22,432 nucleotides of DNA from a virus. The stretch is from positions 1 to 22,432 of the IMG/VR virus record IMGVR_UViG_3300042867_000097, one strand, 5' to 3'. The notes below the pieces were generated by a model, which saw only the letters and a program-made list of their open reading frames with translations, made no database searches and was not told the origin of the DNA. Of the stretch, positions 2 to 6,936 are shown piece by piece. The position numbers were made by a program, and so were the translations under genes. How positions within the stretch are numbered: the stretch's first letter is position 1; each line of letters begins with the position of its first letter.

Positions 2-568
2 TGTGACTTTGTAGCCCCCTTGGTTGAGATGCGTAACAACTTTAAGGCCGACTGGACTGTCTGGGTGGACACCATTGAGCAGAGCCGGTTTGATGACACC
101 AACAAGGCGTTTGTTCCACCAGAACAGTACGACTTCAGGGTCACTGAGCAAGACGCCGAGAAGTGGGCAGAGTTCATTGGTCGGCACATCCTTGACGAAC
201 GCCGCCGCCCCGTGTTTGATTGGAAGAAAGAAACCGTGCAGATGCTAGGCCGCTGGCAACCGTGGCACAAAGGCCATCGTGCGTTGTTTGACAGGGCTAT
301 CGCCAAGACGGGTCAAGTGGTCATTCAGATCAGGGATTGCCAAGGCTGGAACGGCTCCAATCCTTTTGAAAAGACTCAAGTCGAACAGCTTATCAAGCGC
401 GATTTAGACCCGTTGTACCAAGGGCAGTACATTGTGCAGCTAGTCCCAAATGTGACAAACATCACCTATGGCCGAGACGTTGGCTACAAGATTGAGCAGG
501 AATCGTTTGACGATGCTACTCACGCCATCTCTGCAACCAAAATACGAAAAGAGATGGGTATTGAATAA
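2..568 (+). CDS. APS-kinase-like / NMNAT-like nucleotidyltransferase fusion (5' partial)
   Basis: The reading frame is open from base 2, so the true start lies left of the window; a TTG at 20 is only an internal codon. The first ~65 visible residues resemble the C-terminal part of adenylylsulfate-kinase-family proteins (CDFVAP, then VWVDTI, RFDDTNKAF and PPEQYDF); the P-loop would be upstream. The second half is a nucleotidyltransferase of the HxGH superfamily: GRWQPWHKGH carries the HxGH ATP-binding motif, NPFE follows, and ISATKIR near the end matches the ISxTxxR motif of NMNAT-like enzymes. A transferase joining a nucleotide to a phosphorylated acceptor is therefore likely, but the substrate is unknown. 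It heads a sugar-nucleotide block and overlaps the next gene by 8 bp. Both domains are supported by motifs; calling the first a true APS kinase is inference, since related kinases act on other nucleotide substrates (Campylobacter Cj1415, for example, acts on cytidine diphosphoramidate). Confidence 0.7.
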   Translation, partial: CDFVAPLVEMRNNFKADWTVWVDTIEQSRFDDTNKAFVPPEQYDFRVTEQDAEKWAEFIGRHILDERRRPVFDWKKETVQMLGRWQPWHKGHRALFDRAIAKTGQVVIQIRDCQGWNGSNPFEKTQVEQLIKRDLDPLYQGQYIVQLVPNVTNITYGRDVGYKIEQESFDDATHAISATKIRKEMGIE

Positions 569-788: not shown

Positions 789-1187
789 ATGACCACGGTC
801 TTCACCAACGGCTGCTTTGACATTTTGCACAGGGGCCATGTGGAGTACCTTGAGCAGTCCCGTGCATTGGGCAACAAGTTGATTGTTGGACTGAACTCGG
901 ACGCATCGGTGCGCAGGTTGAAGGGGTCTGAGAGGCCTATCAACAACCAAGAAGACCGCAAGGCTGTTCTGCTGGCGTTGCGCAGTGTCAGCGCCGTTTA
1001 CATCTTTGAAGAAGACACGCCATACGAGCTAATCAAGCGTCTCAAGATAGACTTGATAACCAAGGGCGGCGACTATCTACCAGACCAAGTAGTTGGCAAC
1101 GACATTGTAAAAGTTGCTATCCTTCCGTACCTTAAAGGCCACTCAACGACTGGGATGATCTATGCGATTAACGGGAACCGTGACTAA
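789..1187 (+). CDS. hldC: D-glycero-beta-D-manno-heptose 1-phosphate adenylyltransferase (HldE C-domain type)
   Basis: A 132-residue stand-alone version of the C-terminal half of bifunctional HldE/RfaE. It would join AMP from ATP to heptose 1-phosphate, giving ADP-D-glycero-beta-D-manno-heptose in the cytoplasm. Motifs in order: [16 protein letters not shown] with the HxGH catalytic signature (residues ~7-22), [16 protein letters not shown] then [18 protein letters not shown] (~90), and GHSTTGMI near the C-terminus, corresponding to the GCSTTNII ending of E. coli HldE. The length matches the isolated domain. An AAGGA sequence about six bases before the ATG supports this start, three bases after the previous stop. 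The kinase half is encoded separately two genes downstream (1512-2222), so the pathway is split rather than fused, and in the opposite order to E. coli HldE. Confidence 0.9.
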
Positions 1188-1524
1188 GGGCTGGGGCAGC
1201 GAAACCATTTGGGCAACCAATGATCTGTACTGCGGCAAGCTGCTGAATTTCAATACTGGAGCCAAGTTCTCCATGCACTTTCATGCCGTCAAGGATGAGA
1301 CTTGGCATGTGCAGAGCGGCAAGTTTAAAGTCATCATCATTGACACCAAGACCGCCAAGCGGTTTGTGCATGTTCTTAACGTAGGCGATACGTGGCACAA
1401 CCCGCCCATGCTTCCTCACCAGCTTGTCTGCGTTGAGGCTGGCAGCATCATTGAAGTTTCTACTGCGGATTCTGTGGAAGACAACTATCGAGTAGAAGCT
1501 GGAGATAGTCAATGCGCGTCCTAG
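1162..1524 (+). CDS. cupin-fold protein, mannose-6-phosphate-isomerase-like
   Basis: A 120-residue single-domain cupin. The first cupin motif is visible as [16 protein letters not shown] followed by a Gly (residues ~32-52), supplying two His and a Glu as metal ligands; the second is [13 protein letters not shown] (~85-97) with the fourth His. The N-terminus ([11 protein letters not shown]) resembles the KPWG/KxWG entry of phosphomannose-isomerase type II-like cupins. A sugar-phosphate isomerase, epimerase or sugar-binding role is plausible, but the substrate cannot be read. It lies between the separated adenylyltransferase and kinase halves of HldE, overlapping the former by 26 bp and the latter by 13 bp, which argues for function in the same sugar pathway. 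An alternative GTG start at 1180 would remove six residues; the ATG is preferred because the extra residues fit the family N-terminus. Confidence 0.75.
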
Positions 1525-2222
1525 TCATTGGTGATGCCTGCATAGATGAGTACCGCTACGGCGAAATCCGGAGAGTAAATCCCGAATCGTCTGCGCCCTT
1601 GCTAACATTTGTCCGCACCGAAGAGCGGCTGGGCATGGCGTACAACGTAGCTGCCAACCTCAAATCTTTTGGAGTTACCGCCCATGTGCGCGTACCGTCC
1701 GAGATGTCCCGCAAGATTCGGTACGTAGATCTACGTACCCAAGACCACTTGCTGCGCGTAGACCATGATGTTGAGCCAGAGCCGTACACGGTTGAGGCCG
1801 CTTACGACTATGACGCCATAGTGATCTCAGACTACGACAAGGGCTTCGTTACAGATGAGGTGATCCACGCTATCAGAGCGGCGTTTAAAGGGCCGATCTA
1901 CATGGACACCAAGAAGCCCAATCTAGGTGACTTTCCCAGCATCTACATCAAGATCAACGAGCGAGAGTTGTTTGAGTCAACCTCCCTACCAGACCCAGAG
2001 ATGCTGATCGTGACCTACGGAGCCAAGGGCGCGGGGCATCTCAAGCAACTGCATCGTGCGCCAGCAACTGAGGTGGTCGATGTCTGCGGGGCTGGCGATG
2101 TGTTCTTGGCCGCTCTGGTTGCCAATCACCTTGAGACTCAAGACATGGACGCCGCCATCCAGTTTGCCAACGAGAAAGCCGCCAAGTCCTGCACCTACAT
2201 GGGAACGGTATGCGTATCCTGA
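1512..2222 (+). CDS. hldA: D-glycero-beta-D-manno-heptose 7-phosphate kinase (HldE N-domain type, PfkB family)
   Basis: A 236-residue ribokinase/PfkB-family sugar kinase matching the N-terminal half of HldE. It would phosphorylate heptose 7-phosphate at O1. Visible motifs: [13 protein letters not shown] (residues 5-17, cf. VVGDVMLDRYWYG in E. coli HldE), RVNPESSAPL, EERLGMAYNVAANLKSFG (cf. EERPGGAANVAMN), LLRVDHD, VISDYDKG, and the catalytic anion-hole/base motif VVDVCGAGDVF (GAGD 193-196, D196 the expected base). It is about 80 residues shorter than the E. coli domain, with a visible deletion of roughly 30 residues between SFGVTAHVR and RKIRYVDLR, in the region near the lid, and one Gly of the usual GG pair is Met. 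GGAG ten bases before the ATG supports the start. It overlaps the cupin and the epimerase genes by 13 bp each. Confidence 0.88.
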   Translation: MRVLVIGDACIDEYRYGEIRRVNPESSAPLLTFVRTEERLGMAYNVAANLKSFGVTAHVRVPSEMSRKIRYVDLRTQDHLLRVDHDVEPEPYTVEAAYDYDAIVISDYDKGFVTDEVIHAIRAAFKGPIYMDTKKPNLGDFPSIYIKINERELFESTSLPDPEMLIVTYGAKGAGHLKQLHRAPATEVVDVCGAGDVFLAALVANHLETQDMDAAIQFANEKAAKSCTYMGTVCVS

Positions 2223-3046
2223 TTACGGGTTACAAGGGCTTTATCGGGCAGAACATGGTCAAGGCCTTGGCCGATCACGAGCTATCCCTGTATGAGTGGG
2301 GCGAGCCTGCCTACAACCTAGTTGGTCTGGACATGGTCATTCACCTTGGCGCGATCTCAAACACTCGCTGCCAAGACTGGCCTGCGCTCAAACAGCAGAA
2401 CGTGGACTTCACCACTACCCTAATGGAGCGCTGCCAGAAGTACGAGATCCCGCTACAGATTGCCTCATCAGCCTCGGTCTACGGCCCAGAGAACACCACG
2501 TTCAAGGAGTCTGACTCAGTAGCCCCAGCCAACATGTACGCTTGGTCAAAGGTTCTGGTGGAGCAGTATTTTCATGAAATGACGCCAATCTCACCCGTGC
2601 AGTTGTTCAGGTATTTCAACGTCTACGGCCCCCATGAAGACCACAAGGGTGACCAAGCCTCCCCATTCCACAAGTTTAGGGAGCAGGCCAAGACTGGGGT
2701 AATCAAGATTTTTGAGGGCAGCGCAGACTTTAAGCGTGACTTTGTGCCGGTGCAGACGGTCATTGACGTACACAAGGCGTTTTTCAATGTGCCCAAGTCA
2801 GGCATCTGGAACGTAGGAACGGGAGTTGCCAGATCGTTCCTGTCTGTGGCTGAAGAGATTGGCGGCCCTATTGTTGCGGTGCCTATGCCTTCTGATTTAA
2901 AATCAACCTACCAGCGTTATACCCAAGCAGACCTTGAAGAACTACACCAAGTGCTAGGTGACCACTATGATAGATCCGCTAACAGCCCTTGCAGGCATAC
3001 AAGCAGCAGTTGCGCTAATCAAAAAGGTCAGCAAGACTGTCGATGA
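2210..3046 (+). CDS. hldD: ADP-L-glycero-D-manno-heptose 6-epimerase (HldD-like SDR)
   Basis: A 278-residue extended short-chain dehydrogenase/reductase that would invert C6 of ADP-heptose using bound NADP. Motifs: the Rossmann loop TGYKGFIG (6-13), SSASVYG (86-92), catalytic Y110-xxx-K114 (YAWSK), and then a run highly specific to HldD: RYFNVYGPHEDHKG (134-147), KIFEGSADFKRDFVPV (166-181), GIWNVGTGVARSF and TYQRYTQADLEEL. These align with E. coli HldD RYFNVYGPREGHKG, LFEGSENFKRDFVYV, GIFNLGTGRAESF and RYQAFTQADLTNL. The family is usually ~310 residues; here the final helix is lost and the last ~25 residues (after GDHYD) do not resemble HldD and overlap the next gene by 80 bp. Together with the genes at 789 and 1512 it forms a heptose-nucleotide module. 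Confidence 0.9.
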   Translation: MRILITGYKGFIGQNMVKALADHELSLYEWGEPAYNLVGLDMVIHLGAISNTRCQDWPALKQQNVDFTTTLMERCQKYEIPLQIASSASVYGPENTTFKESDSVAPANMYAWSKVLVEQYFHEMTPISPVQLFRYFNVYGPHEDHKGDQASPFHKFREQAKTGVIKIFEGSADFKRDFVPVQTVIDVHKAFFNVPKSGIWNVGTGVARSFLSVAEEIGGPIVAVPMPSDLKSTYQRYTQADLEELHQVLGDHYDRSANSPCRHTSSSCANQKGQQDCR

Positions 3047-4057: not shown

Positions 4058-4554
4058 TGGACTGGTTAAAACAAATCGCGCCGACAATCGCCACGGCGCT
4101 AGGGGGTCCCTTAGCTGGGATGGCCGTATCTGCCATCTCAAAAGCCATAGGGGTGGATCCTGAGAAGGTTGGCGATTTAATCTCCAGCAACAAACTTTCA
4201 GCAGAGCAAATTGCTCAGGTCAAGATTGCTGAAATTGAACTTCAAAAACAAGCGCAGGAGCTTGGCCTAAACTTTGCAAAGTTGGAAGTTGAAGACCGCA
4301 AGTCTGCGCGTGACATGCAAGCTGCAACACGCTCAATTGTCCCCCCGGCACTGGCTGCAATCATCACTGTTGGGTTTTTTGGCATCTTAGGGATGATGCT
4401 GTTTGGCAAAGTGGATGGCAACAACCCCACTATTTTGATGATGCTGGGCAGTTTGTCTACCGCTTGGACGGGCATCATTGCGTATTATTTTGGCTCCTCT
4501 GCTGGCTCACAAGCCAAGACCGATTTGCTTTCTAAGGCGGGGCCAGTCAAATGA
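4057..4554 (+). CDS. holin, 3-TM (GTA/phage holin) family
   Basis: A 165-residue inner-membrane protein that would form the lesions releasing or activating the endolysin. The N-terminus is a hydrophobic, Gly/Ala-rich segment (IATALGGPLAGMAVSAISKAIGV, ~11-33), a charged amphipathic helix follows (~50-92, with VKIAEIELQKQAQELG and EDRKSARDMQ), then two clear transmembrane helices at ~96-117 (ALAAIITVGFFGILGMMLFG) and ~125-146 (ILMMLGSLSTAWTGIIAYYFG), and a polar tail. This layout, with the RDMQ...PALA junction, is typical of the GTA_holin_3TM family (PF11351). The start overlaps the previous stop (TAATG) with AAGGAG upstream. The endolysin follows with an ATGA overlap, the usual lysis pair. Confidence 0.8.
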   Translation: MDWLKQIAPTIATALGGPLAGMAVSAISKAIGVDPEKVGDLISSNKLSAEQIAQVKIAEIELQKQAQELGLNFAKLEVEDRKSARDMQAATRSIVPPALAAIITVGFFGILGMMLFGKVDGNNPTILMMLGSLSTAWTGIIAYYFGSSAGSQAKTDLLSKAGPVK

Positions 4555-5015
4555 ACCTCACCGAACACTTCTCGCTGTCCGAAATGACCAAAAGCGAAAC
4601 CGCTTTGCGTCATGATATGGACAACACGCCGAATGCAGCAACGATTGCCAACCTTCAGGTGCTAGCCGAAAAGGTGCTACAGCCGGTGCGCGAGCATTTT
4701 GGCAAAGGCGTGAAAGTGAACTCTGGATACCGAAGCTCTGACGTCAATGCCAAGGTAGGCGGCTCTCGCACGTCCGACCATTGCCTTGGCCGAGCCGCTG
4801 ACATTGAGATCCCAAGCGTTCCAAACCACGAACTGGCCGAGTGGATTAGAGAAAATCTGACCTATACGCAACTGATTCTTGAGTTTTATACTCGGGGCGT
4901 GCCGGACTCGGGCTGGGTGCATGTGTCTTATGACCCCGAAAACCTAAAAAAGCAAGATTTGACCGCAGTAAAAGAGGGCGGGAAAACGATGTACCTGTCT
5001 GGACTCCATGCGTAA
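4551..5015 (+). CDS. endolysin, peptidase M15A family
   Basis: A 154-residue zinc peptidase that should cut peptide cross-links or stem peptides of peptidoglycan. The M15 signature is visible: SGYRSSDVN (58-66), then SDHCLGRAADIE with zinc ligands H77 and D84, and GWVHVSYDP with H124 as the third ligand; E111 in ILEFY or the residues near H124 would supply the catalytic acid/base. The N-terminal FSLSEMTKSETA is characteristic of the phage M15A (Peptidase_M15_3, PF08291) group. No signal peptide or separate wall-binding domain is present, so it depends on the holin. ATGA overlap with the holin. No Rz/Rz1-type spanin pair was found after it. Confidence 0.88.
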   Translation: MNLTEHFSLSEMTKSETALRHDMDNTPNAATIANLQVLAEKVLQPVREHFGKGVKVNSGYRSSDVNAKVGGSRTSDHCLGRAADIEIPSVPNHELAEWIRENLTYTQLILEFYTRGVPDSGWVHVSYDPENLKKQDLTAVKEGGKTMYLSGLHA

Positions 5016-5019
5016 CAAG

Positions 5020-5049
5020 TTGCCTTGAACTTTGTTTCAAGGCTATAAT
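5020..5049 (+). promoter_or_regulatory. candidate sigma-70-type promoter before the virion operon
   Basis: In the 83-bp gap after the endolysin there is a perfect -10 TATAAT at 5044-5049 and a -35-like TTGCCT at 5020-5025, separated by 18 bp. It would start transcription near 5056, about 43 bases before the adaptor ATG at 5099. The better-looking hexamer TTGAAC at 5025 is only 13 bp from the -10 and was not used. A perfect 8-bp inverted repeat fills the spacer. Confidence 0.5.
5022..5043. repeat. 8-bp inverted repeat inside the promoter spacer
   Basis: GCCTTGAA (5022-5029) and TTCAAGGC (5036-5043) are perfect inverted copies separated by six bases (CTTTGT). The right arm abuts the TATAAT -10 box. 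It could be an operator, or a short RNA hairpin at the end of the lysis transcript; no T-run follows the stem, so it is not a standard intrinsic terminator. Confidence 0.6.
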
Positions 5050-5098
5050 CATATAAACGGCGCATGCTGAATCAGCGGCTAATACCCATGGAGTGTAT

Positions 5099-5731
5099 AT
5101 GAGCTATAGCATGACGTACGACAGCTTGCTGGTAGACGTGCGGCGCTACCTTGAGCGTGGTTTCACGCAAGATAGCGACCAGATCGTCTACGACCAACTG
5201 CCTAGGTTGATCACATTGGGCGAGCGCAGGATTGCGCGAGAGCTTAAAATTCAGGGGTTCATCCGAGCGGTGAGTACCCCTTTATCCGTTGGCGTGGCTG
5301 TCTACCTGAAGCCTGACCGCTGGCGCGACACAATCAGCATGACTGTCAACGGATCGCCTATCTTTGCTCGGGCCTACGAGTATTGCCGCAGCTATTGGCC
5401 GAACGAGGCCCAGACTGCCGCGCCTCAGTTTTATGCTGACTACGACTACCAGAACTGGTTGATCACCCCAACACCTTCTACGGTACAAACTCTTGAGATT
5501 TTGTACTACGAACAACCCGCCCTTTTGGGCGATGACTTACAAACCAACTATCTCACTGAATACGCCCCTGATGTGTTGCTGTATGCAACCTTGCTTGAGG
5601 CTACCCCGTTTCTTAAGAAAGACGAGCGTATCCAGACGTGGCAGATGATGTATGACCGTGCGGCGCAGGCTCTCAATGGCGAAGACCTCAAGCGCATCAT
5701 GGACCGCTCAGCAAATAGGAGTGAAGCGTAA
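5099..5731 (+). CDS. head-tail adaptor / tail tubular A-like protein
   Basis: A 210-residue protein. Helical N-terminus with YDSLLVDVRRYLERG and LITLGERRIARELKIQGF (~35-53), a central beta region (VAVYLKPDRWRDTISMTV, then ARAYEYCRSYWP and YQNWLITPTPSTVQTLEILYYEQP), and a helical C-terminus (YAPDVLLYATLLEATPFLKKDERIQTWQMMYDRAAQAL). This pattern of a helix containing E(R)RIxREL, a beta insert and a C-terminal LLYAxLLEAxPFL helix is common to podovirus adaptor or tail-tubular-A proteins that ring the portal. TGGAG precedes the ATG at 5099 by five bases; an upstream GTG at 5093 was not preferred. It is the first gene after the candidate promoter. Confidence 0.65.
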   Translation: MSYSMTYDSLLVDVRRYLERGFTQDSDQIVYDQLPRLITLGERRIARELKIQGFIRAVSTPLSVGVAVYLKPDRWRDTISMTVNGSPIFARAYEYCRSYWPNEAQTAAPQFYADYDYQNWLITPTPSTVQTLEILYYEQPALLGDDLQTNYLTEYAPDVLLYATLLEATPFLKKDERIQTWQMMYDRAAQALNGEDLKRIMDRSANRSEA

Positions 5732-6936
5732 TGCCTATCTACACAGACGTCTTTGGTGGCGCAAACATTTACCCGAGCGAGATTAGCTATAGCGCTATCA
5801 CGCTGACTACTACGGATGTGACGCTGAGTTGGCCCGAGGAAACTAGCACCAGCACCAATCTTGCGACCCGCATCATTGATGTAACGGCCACTACCGCAGG
5901 GCGGTCAATCTTTTTGCCAGACGCGCAAAAAAGTGGCGTTGGCAACACCATACTGTTCAACAACCAAGGCGCTCAAACTTTTGTAGTTAAGAACGCTGGC
6001 GGCACGCAAGTTGTTTCAATTGCCGCTGGAACGGTTTGGCAAGTCTATTTGACAGACAACACCACCACAAATGGTTTGTGGGAATCGCTTCAATTTGGAG
6101 CCACGGTATCTACTGCTAATGCATCTGCTTTGGCAGGCACTGGCATTGTGGCTGTGGGCACGCTGTTGTCTCAGTCTGTGCCGATCACCAACTTTAATTC
6201 AAACTACATTGCAGGCGATTCAGACCGCGCCAAAATGTACTTGTGGACCGGATCAGGGTCAGGCACCTTGACACTGCCTAGCGCAGCTACAGTGGGCAAC
6301 AACTGGTTCATGTACTTGCGCAACTCGGGTGGCGGTCAAGTCACGCTGACACCTTCTGGCGTCAACACAATTGATGGTTTGGCGACAAAAGCCTACCAGC
6401 CAACTGAGTCGTCGGTGATCATCAGTGATGGCACAAACTTCTACACACTAGGGTTTGGTCAGGCTTCTGTCTTTGTGTTTGACTACACAGTGATCAGCGT
6501 TGCGGGAACTGGAACCTACACGCTAACCGGATCAGAACTGAATCGTATTGTTTACAAATTTACAGGTGCGCTAACGGGCACTAGGGTTGTGATTGTCCCC
6601 GCCACTGTCCAGCAGTATTGGGTTGATAACGCGACAACTGGCGCTTACACACTCACCGTTAGGACTTCTGCTGGAACTGGTGTTGCAGTCGCACAAGGCT
6701 CACGAGGCATTTATTACTGCGACGGCACTGATGTTGTTGATGCAGATAGCGCAACTTCAAGTTTTCCAATTACGGTTGCTCAAGGCGGCACAGGCGCTAC
6801 CACAGCAGGCGGCGCACTGATCAATCTTGGTGGAACTGCGGTTGGTATCCCTATTTTTGAAGCGGCTAACCAACAAGCAGCTTGGACTGTTTTGGGTGTT
6901 GCGCCAGCAGGTGTTGTAAATGGCGGGACTTATTGA
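5731..6936 (+). CDS. fibre-like virion protein with three beta-repeat modules
   Basis: A 401-residue protein low in charge and rich in Thr, Ser, Gly, Ala and Val. Three modules of similar pattern can be seen at residues ~27-125, ~175-255 and ~260-345, each with strands around a (I/V)xLP or VIVPA core, then a GNxxxxxN or similar turn, and ending in a DG-type turn plus strand (DGTNFYTLGFG; CDGTDVVDAD). Near the C-terminus (~347-367) is ITVAQGGTGATTAGGALINLG, the motif found in many phage tail-fibre proteins. A fibre, appendage or head-decorating role is therefore likely. It lies between adaptor and nozzle genes, an uncommon position for a receptor-binding fibre. TAATG coupling with the adaptor. 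Which part of the virion it occupies is not shown by the sequence. Confidence 0.6.
   Translation: MPIYTDVFGGANIYPSEISYSAITLTTTDVTLSWPEETSTSTNLATRIIDVTATTAGRSIFLPDAQKSGVGNTILFNNQGAQTFVVKNAGGTQVVSIAAGTVWQVYLTDNTTTNGLWESLQFGATVSTANASALAGTGIVAVGTLLSQSVPITNFNSNYIAGDSDRAKMYLWTGSGSGTLTLPSAATVGNNWFMYLRNSGGGQVTLTPSGVNTIDGLATKAYQPTESSVIISDGTNFYTLGFGQASVFVFDYTVISVAGTGTYTLTGSELNRIVYKFTGALTGTRVVIVPATVQQYWVDNATTGAYTLTVRTSAGTGVAVAQGSRGIYYCDGTDVVDADSATSSFPITVAQGGTGATTAGGALINLGGTAVGIPIFEAANQQAAWTVLGVAPAGVVNGGTY

Follow-up and report, generated by a model that had tools for sequence, protein, structure and literature searches.

PAPS synthetases of the human PAPSS1/2 type join an N-terminal APS kinase to a C-terminal HxGH nucleotidyltransferase, and the animal proteins are about 620 aa long. 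The protein described here has the same domain order in less than half of that length (about 260–283 aa) and occurs as a fusion in phages and bacteria; compared with PAPSS1/2, it has a shorter kinase lid and a second domain of 117 aa that is NadM-like, instead of a three-part sulfurylase of the Sat type. NadR, another enzyme with two such domains, has the opposite order (an NMNAT followed by a ribosylnicotinamide kinase), whereas the kinase here is APS-kinase-like. The phage members of the family are covered at nearly full length by phrog_10255 (E 6e-49), which is annotated as a kinase only and leaves the second domain without a proposed function. We consider it highly likely that the fusion is a compact bifunctional PAPS synthetase, and that in SAR11 its nucleotidyltransferase replaces the missing Sat.

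The stretch of DNA analysed (the window, 22,432 bases of a virus record) begins within the fusion gene. Frame 2 contains an uninterrupted reading frame of 188 aa, which runs from base 2 to the TAA stop at 566–568; VWVDTI, RFDDTNKAF, PPEQYDF, HKGH, and ISATKIR all lie in this single frame. These are the last 188 residues of a 283-residue protein, the 95 N-terminal residues of which are outside the window. Contig IMGVR_UViG_3300043465_000038 (L002), which comes from nearly the same phage, encodes a stretch identical to these 188 residues (100% identity), and the full protein was read there at L002:4898-5749 (283 aa, starting with MKKILIMGLPGSGKTFLA). The original prediction, made from the window alone, had placed an APS-kinase-family domain and an NMNAT-like HxGH nucleotidyltransferase on one chain with a P-loop to be expected upstream; both domains are in one frame in the window and in L002, and the P-loop is present as GLPGSGKT at residues 8–15 of the full-length protein. 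The features of the gene are as follows.

L002:4898-5182, left of the window: P-loop half of the kinase domain (read in L002).
2..205, + strand: C-terminal portion of the APS-kinase domain (residues 96–163 of the full-length protein), with FVAP and the short lid RFDDTNKAFVPPEQYDF (Pfam, model, profile).
86..112, + strand: shortened kinase lid RFDDTNKAF, including F132 (48-sequence alignment, compared with CysC residues; PMC4373884).
218..565, + strand: HxGH nucleotidyltransferase domain (residues 168–283), the proposed compact ATP sulfurylase (profile, model).
248..277, + strand: GRWQPWHKGH, the HxGH signature (residues 178–187; 60-sequence alignment).
332..334, + strand: R206 at the end of strand 2, with a putative role as oxyanion ligand (alignment).
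467..487, + strand: YGRDVGY signature (residues 251–257; 60-sequence alignment).
527..547, + strand: ISATKIR (residues 271–277), counterpart of the ISxTxxR / SGTxxR motif (alignment).
566..568, + strand: stop codon of the fusion gene (ORF reading).

A scan of viral contigs yielded at least 600 stretches related to this gene, and among the matches listed, five named phages carry the fusion at 38–41% identity. Casjensviridae and DLP_6 members are divergent (38–42% identity). The P-loop, with small variants included, was found in 125/125 of the full-length viral relatives used, and the kinase and nucleotidyltransferase formed one open frame in almost all of these loci. Two exceptions were observed. 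A few phages (L161–L166) have the kinase without the nucleotidyltransferase, and in many Pelagibacteraceae, where a scan of genomes detected the family, it occurs mostly as pairs of adjacent genes on the SAR11 chromosomes (42 loci). Thus, on the earlier question of a stop or a separate start between the two parts in relatives, the fusion holds for almost all of the viral relatives, whereas in SAR11 the parts are usually two genes.

The kinase half matched the Pfam APS_kinase family (PF01583) with an E of 1.7e-7 (31.8 bits against a cut-off of 21.1). When a profile of 48 relatives was compared with the PDB, APS kinases ranked ahead of every other kinase family (best match 2yvu, 1e-15) and dominated the top 24 matches of this kinase profile (A3). 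The AlphaFold model of the full-length protein had a pLDDT of 88, and with this model, a prediction that had been suggested together with the fusion, Foldseek ranked human PAPS synthetase 1 first (E 2e-6); model residues 1–163 matched APS kinases with Z values of up to 17.7. In the structure of M. tuberculosis CysC, APS is held by Asp480, Arg483, Phe492, Arg497, and Phe576 (PMC4373884). By motif spacing, these residues correspond to D59, R62, F70, R75, and F132 of the fusion protein; the first four were identical in 48/48 sequences, also in the 21 most diverse, and the position of F132 was F, Y, or W in 48/48. The P-loop, the D-x-x-R, F, and R residues for APS binding, and the FxxP motif are common to both proteins. 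The fusion kinase differs from CysC in that the first Asp of DGDN is replaced by Asn in the phage kinase, in the attached nucleotidyltransferase, and in a lid that is shorter (RF[DE]DTNKxF in the 48 sequences) and lacks the R-D-P-K-G-L-Y and F-T-G elements of the CysC type, although it retains an Arg in 41/48 and an aromatic residue in 48/48. Sequence, model, and the conserved APS-binding residues all assign the N-terminal half to the APS kinases. The stand-alone kinases of L161–L166 belong to the same family and are short (133–164 aa), and in L162 and L164–L166 the gene overlaps an upstream SAM methyltransferase-like gene by 4 bases.

The nucleotidyltransferase half is a domain of about 117 residues of the HxGH type. 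In a profile search of the PDB, its closest matches were NadM-type NMNATs (2qjt, 1e-10; 1f9a, 1e-9), with which it has the GRxQPxHxGH and NPF motifs in common, and no ATP sulfurylase structure was matched. The predicted fold (pLDDT 89) is that of the HxGH superfamily. In Foldseek searches with this domain alone, NMNAT, PPAT, and ATP sulfurylase were not separated (all E > 0.02, with PPAT and NMNAT tied in Z), and thus the fold was not used to decide the function. By family membership, as far as sequence can assign it, the domain is NadM-like and not Sat; its working function is a separate question.

In an alignment of 60 sequences, the G, R, Q, P, H, G, and H of GRWQPWHKGH were invariant (60/60), and the catalytic residues of HxGH and ISxTxxR were invariant or nearly so. 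Such conservation disagrees with the idea that the kinase alone is active and that the C-terminal domain persists merely as a remnant with a regulatory or structural role, and so does the occurrence of the SAR11 nucleotidyltransferase without a kinase (L327 and L330); with only the kinase-only phages (L161–L166) in its favor, we regarded this as the least probable of the explanations considered. A NadR-like NAD salvage function, in which the kinase would phosphorylate nicotinamide riboside and the NMNAT-like domain would make NAD, agrees with the closeness to NadM-type NMNATs (2qjt, 1e-10) and with the overlap of the fusion with a NADAR-domain gene in Casjensviridae. However, the kinase belongs to the APS-kinase family and not to the NadR kinase family, and the Arg of NPFTxxER, which we take to be phosphate-binding in NadM, is replaced by V or I in 56/60 sequences and is not Arg in the alignment. 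In addition, the stretch from strand 3 to the ISxTxxR helix comprises 14 profile positions against 39 residues in 1f9a, and is thus about 25 residues shorter than in NadM-type NMNATs, where this segment presumably holds the nicotinamide-binding Trp. Moreover, the gene contexts consist of sulfur genes, not NAD genes. NAD salvage, which had been considered because of the NADAR neighbour in Stenotrophomonas phages, was rejected as very improbable on the kinase family, the missing NMN-pocket segment, and the sulfur contexts, and, as that segment is shorter here, the NAD-like chemistry mentioned in the original prediction is not supported.

Two arginines distinguish the domain from NadM. R206, a candidate oxyanion ligand, is R in 58/60 and K in 2/60 sequences, where NadM has GSAQ, and R253 of YGR[DG]VGY is invariant (60/60). 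From the alignment, the pocket for the acceptor seems to be small and rich in arginine. YGRDVGY is similar to the GRD loop found in ATP sulfurylase, with D in 35/60 and G in 20/60. When the 60 sequences were compared with the Sat motifs (PMC3779200), S-A-T-x-x-R was present and GR was invariant; the QxRN sulfate-binding motif was absent, with G-R-[YWF]-Q in its place in 60/60 and an aromatic residue instead of the Arg. The Sat profile PF01747 matched neither the fusion proteins nor any of the 16 carrier genomes (0/16). Compared with Sat, the domain has in common the superfamily fold (1g8f was among the Foldseek matches), ISxTxxR, a partly conserved GRD loop (GR[D/G]), and, as described below, the place upstream of aprMBA; it differs in having no sequence match, no QxRN, and a third of the size.

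Downstream of the fusion, the window contains a cassette of heptose-activation genes (HldE halves and HldD; 789–3046), separated from it by a short open stretch (570–785) in which no family match was found.

789..1187, + strand: HldE-type heptose-1-phosphate adenylyltransferase (RfaE domain II; TIGR02199, E 1e-48).
1162..1524, + strand: small cupin protein, labelled cysteine dioxygenase in PHROGs.
1512..2222, + strand: short PfkB kinase, HldE domain-I-like (heptose kinase).
2210..3046, + strand: HldD-like ADP-heptose epimerase (TIGR02197, E 3e-58).

Given its place among the heptose genes, the cupin may have a role like that of a sugar isomerase or epimerase. From the heptose genes and the APS-kinase homology, the original prediction had proposed that an unusual head group is activated in two steps, possibly as in Campylobacter, where the APS-kinase homologue Cj1415 uses a CDP derivative during phosphoramidate synthesis. 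A two-step device is retained in our reading, with the order reversed: nucleotidyl transfer would come first and 3'-phosphorylation second. The head group itself found no support. The residues that hold the phosphosulfate in the APS site, including its arginines, are invariant, no glutamine-kinase, CTP-dependent, or other phosphoramidate-pathway partner genes were seen, and the neighbours vary among loci while sulfotransferases and aprMBA recur. Activation of a heptose head group was rejected, as only some of the close relatives have heptose genes next to the fusion and most other members have none nearby; overall, we considered this explanation very improbable, like NAD salvage.

The commonest neighbour cluster of the fusion contains a sulfotransferase, which was found in 74 of 142 viral loci and always on the same strand as the fusion; close relatives of the window phage also have a sulfotransferase upstream of it. 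Pfam confirmed sulfotransferases of different subfamilies near the fusion in phages (L006 and L004) and in bacteria (L191, L167, and L178), with weak support in L170 and L091. The two genes overlap by four bases in L006 and L007 (ATGA) and in L010 and L011, and the gap between them is 55 bp in L191, 80 bp in L167, and 34 bp in L178. Among dereplicated viral loci, sulfotransferase-like ORFs were concentrated within 1.5 kb (20/225 ORFs, compared with 4/417 ORFs further away; p 1e-6), although only 16/48 of these loci had a sulfotransferase within 3 kb; in L002 it lies 3.6 kb from the fusion. Across 80 viral contigs that share the window's tail gene, a sulfotransferase was present in 3/5 with the fusion and in 0/75 without it, two of the three being near-copies of the window phage. 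Bacterial carriers showed the same association, with Sulfotransfer_3 in 12/16 carriers against 2/14 control genomes. For the window phage, the heptose genes of the window and the upstream sulfotransferase of its close relatives make a sulfated heptose-containing glycan a reasonable guess for the target.

Several arrangements around the fusion were observed besides these. A phage protein at L004:2331-4100 consists of an N-terminal sulfotransferase, a TPR-like middle, and a C-terminal part without a PDB or Pfam match; this C-terminal part of the L002/L004 protein had been suspected by eye to be GT9-like (heptosyltransferase), a candidate that was rejected for want of any such match. In a second phage group (L091–L104, about 4300–5990), two proteins encoded in tandem, each with a (P/N)RSGST-like start, precede the fusion; they are weakly Stf0-like by Pfam and are probably divergent sulfotransferases. 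In contrast, Sulfotransfer_3 had no match in the whole records of the named Casjensviridae and DLP_6 members; this subgroup does not fit the sulfotransferase context and is unexplained, and the role of the fusion may differ in it. In Casjensviridae, a NADAR gene identified by Pfam (L082:5355-5798) lies directly upstream of the fusion and overlaps it, and L084, L085, and L086 have an upstream gene there that is equally long. This adjacency is an unexplained and possible link of APS or PAPS with NAD or ADP-ribose chemistry.

The genomes of SAR11 provided a second context. In Allochromatium vinosum, sat is located immediately upstream of aprMBA (PMC3779200). In two Pelagibacteraceae loci (L327 and L330), the nucleotidyltransferase occurs without the kinase and occupies this sat position, and in L328, L329, and L331 the kinase and the nucleotidyltransferase together lie upstream of aprMBA. 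The gene order in L327 is nucleotidyltransferase, a membrane protein in the place of aprM, aprB (TIGR02060, 7e-56), aprA (TIGR02061, 1e-299), and then a TauE/SafE exporter. Of 99 sampled Pelagibacteraceae genomes, 18 had aprA within 5 kb of the nucleotidyltransferase, always downstream and on the same strand, and the two genes co-occurred strongly in this sample (37/11/7/44, OR 21, p about 1e-10). Co-occurrence of Sulfotransfer_3 with the nucleotidyltransferase in SAR11 genomes was moderate (28/20/14/37, p 0.002), and for CysD a tendency to mutual exclusion (1/7) was not significant (p 0.11); because SAR11 genomes are incomplete and related, these p-values are optimistic. In the domain tree, the aprMBA-linked copies were mixed among the fused SAR11 copies, and the window copy fell in a neighbouring, mostly viral group, which makes the same reaction the simplest assumption for the SAR11 and window copies. 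In many SAR11 genomes, the split pair lies not beside aprMBA but at a different locus, together with genes for a Rieske oxygenase, a DddP-like DMSP lyase, a BHMT-like protein, SBP56 (methanethiol-oxidase-like), and one-carbon metabolism.

L204:8001-11341: split kinase/nucleotidyltransferase pair, DddP/SBP56-type locus.
L216:6766-10420: split kinase/nucleotidyltransferase pair, DddP/SBP56-type locus.

The aprMBA location and the apparently small, arginine-rich acceptor pocket would also agree with an APS:phosphate adenylyltransferase (ADP sulfurylase), or another user of a small oxyanion, that disposes of APS, with the phage fusion mainly phosphorylating APS made by the host. However, a fused APS kinase with an adjacent sulfotransferase needs APS to be made and not removed, the HxGH superfamily uses ATP and pyrophosphate, and the gene position is that of sat. 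We therefore considered an ADP sulfurylase improbable, if less so than the other alternatives, and favored an ATP sulfurylase.

The distribution of Sat was complementary to that of the nucleotidyltransferase. Ca. P. ubique is reported to have AprBA but neither sat nor cysDNCHIJ (PMC5069961), incomplete sulfate pathways have been reported as core in the SAR11 family (PMC12636525), and AprBA without Sat or CysDNC has been described for SAR11 (PMC5069961, PMC12636525). Of the 337 Alphaproteobacteria that we sampled, 19 had aprA, and these comprised 15 with Sat and without the nucleotidyltransferase, 3 with the nucleotidyltransferase and without Sat, and 1 with neither (p 0.004); the three also belong to the Pelagibacteraceae sample. 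Among 18 further SAR11 genomes with aprA and the nucleotidyltransferase, Sat was unmatched in 16. PF01747 matches were observed in two SAR11 genomes that carry the nucleotidyltransferase (G038:C1:311365-311886, E 1e-46; G045:C11:2913-3431, E 6e-25), and may reflect contamination or an additional sulfurylase.

The sulfotransferase and aprMBA contexts suggest that the substrates are sulfate and APS. One PAPS scheme accommodates the kinase with its preserved APS site, the nucleotidyltransferase that occupies the position of ATP sulfurylase, and the neighbour that uses PAPS and recurs among loci. In the first step, the C-terminal NadM-like domain would use ATP to adenylylate sulfate, with APS and PPi as products; in the second, the N-terminal kinase would phosphorylate the 3'-OH of APS, giving PAPS and ADP. 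In the phage, PAPS would pass to its own sulfotransferases, which would probably add sulfate to a glycan or protein located at a surface or associated with the tail, and the product of the window gene very probably turns sulfate into PAPS for the sulfate-adding enzymes of the virus. In SAR11, the nucleotidyltransferase beside AprMBA, alone or with the kinase, would run in reverse, converting APS and PPi to ATP and sulfate, and its use there would be dissimilatory. More broadly, we think it likely that a NadM-like nucleotidyltransferase gave rise to a new class of ATP sulfurylase with a minimal structure, which took over from Sat in the SAR11 aprMBA operon and, when fused to a short-lid APS kinase, became a PAPS synthetase (about 270 residues) carried by phages along with sulfotransferases. 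Our literature search, which covered sources other than subscription papers and preprints, found no earlier report of such a SAR11 sulfurylase or phage PAPS synthetase.

If this proposal is true, so small a sulfurylase (about 117 residues) would be useful as a compact tool for PAPS production. As current database labels for the family are "kinase" or NMNAT-like, NAD metabolism may have been annotated wrongly in some phages. Many aquatic phages would bring their own sulfate activation together with sulfotransferases, implying sulfated surfaces on the phage or its host. In SAR11, the most abundant bacteria of the ocean, the reported presence of AprBA without Sat or CysDNC had left the fate of sulfite-derived APS open; the nucleotidyltransferase would provide a concrete candidate for the step that consumes this APS, with a possible gain of energy for the cell as ATP from APS and PPi.
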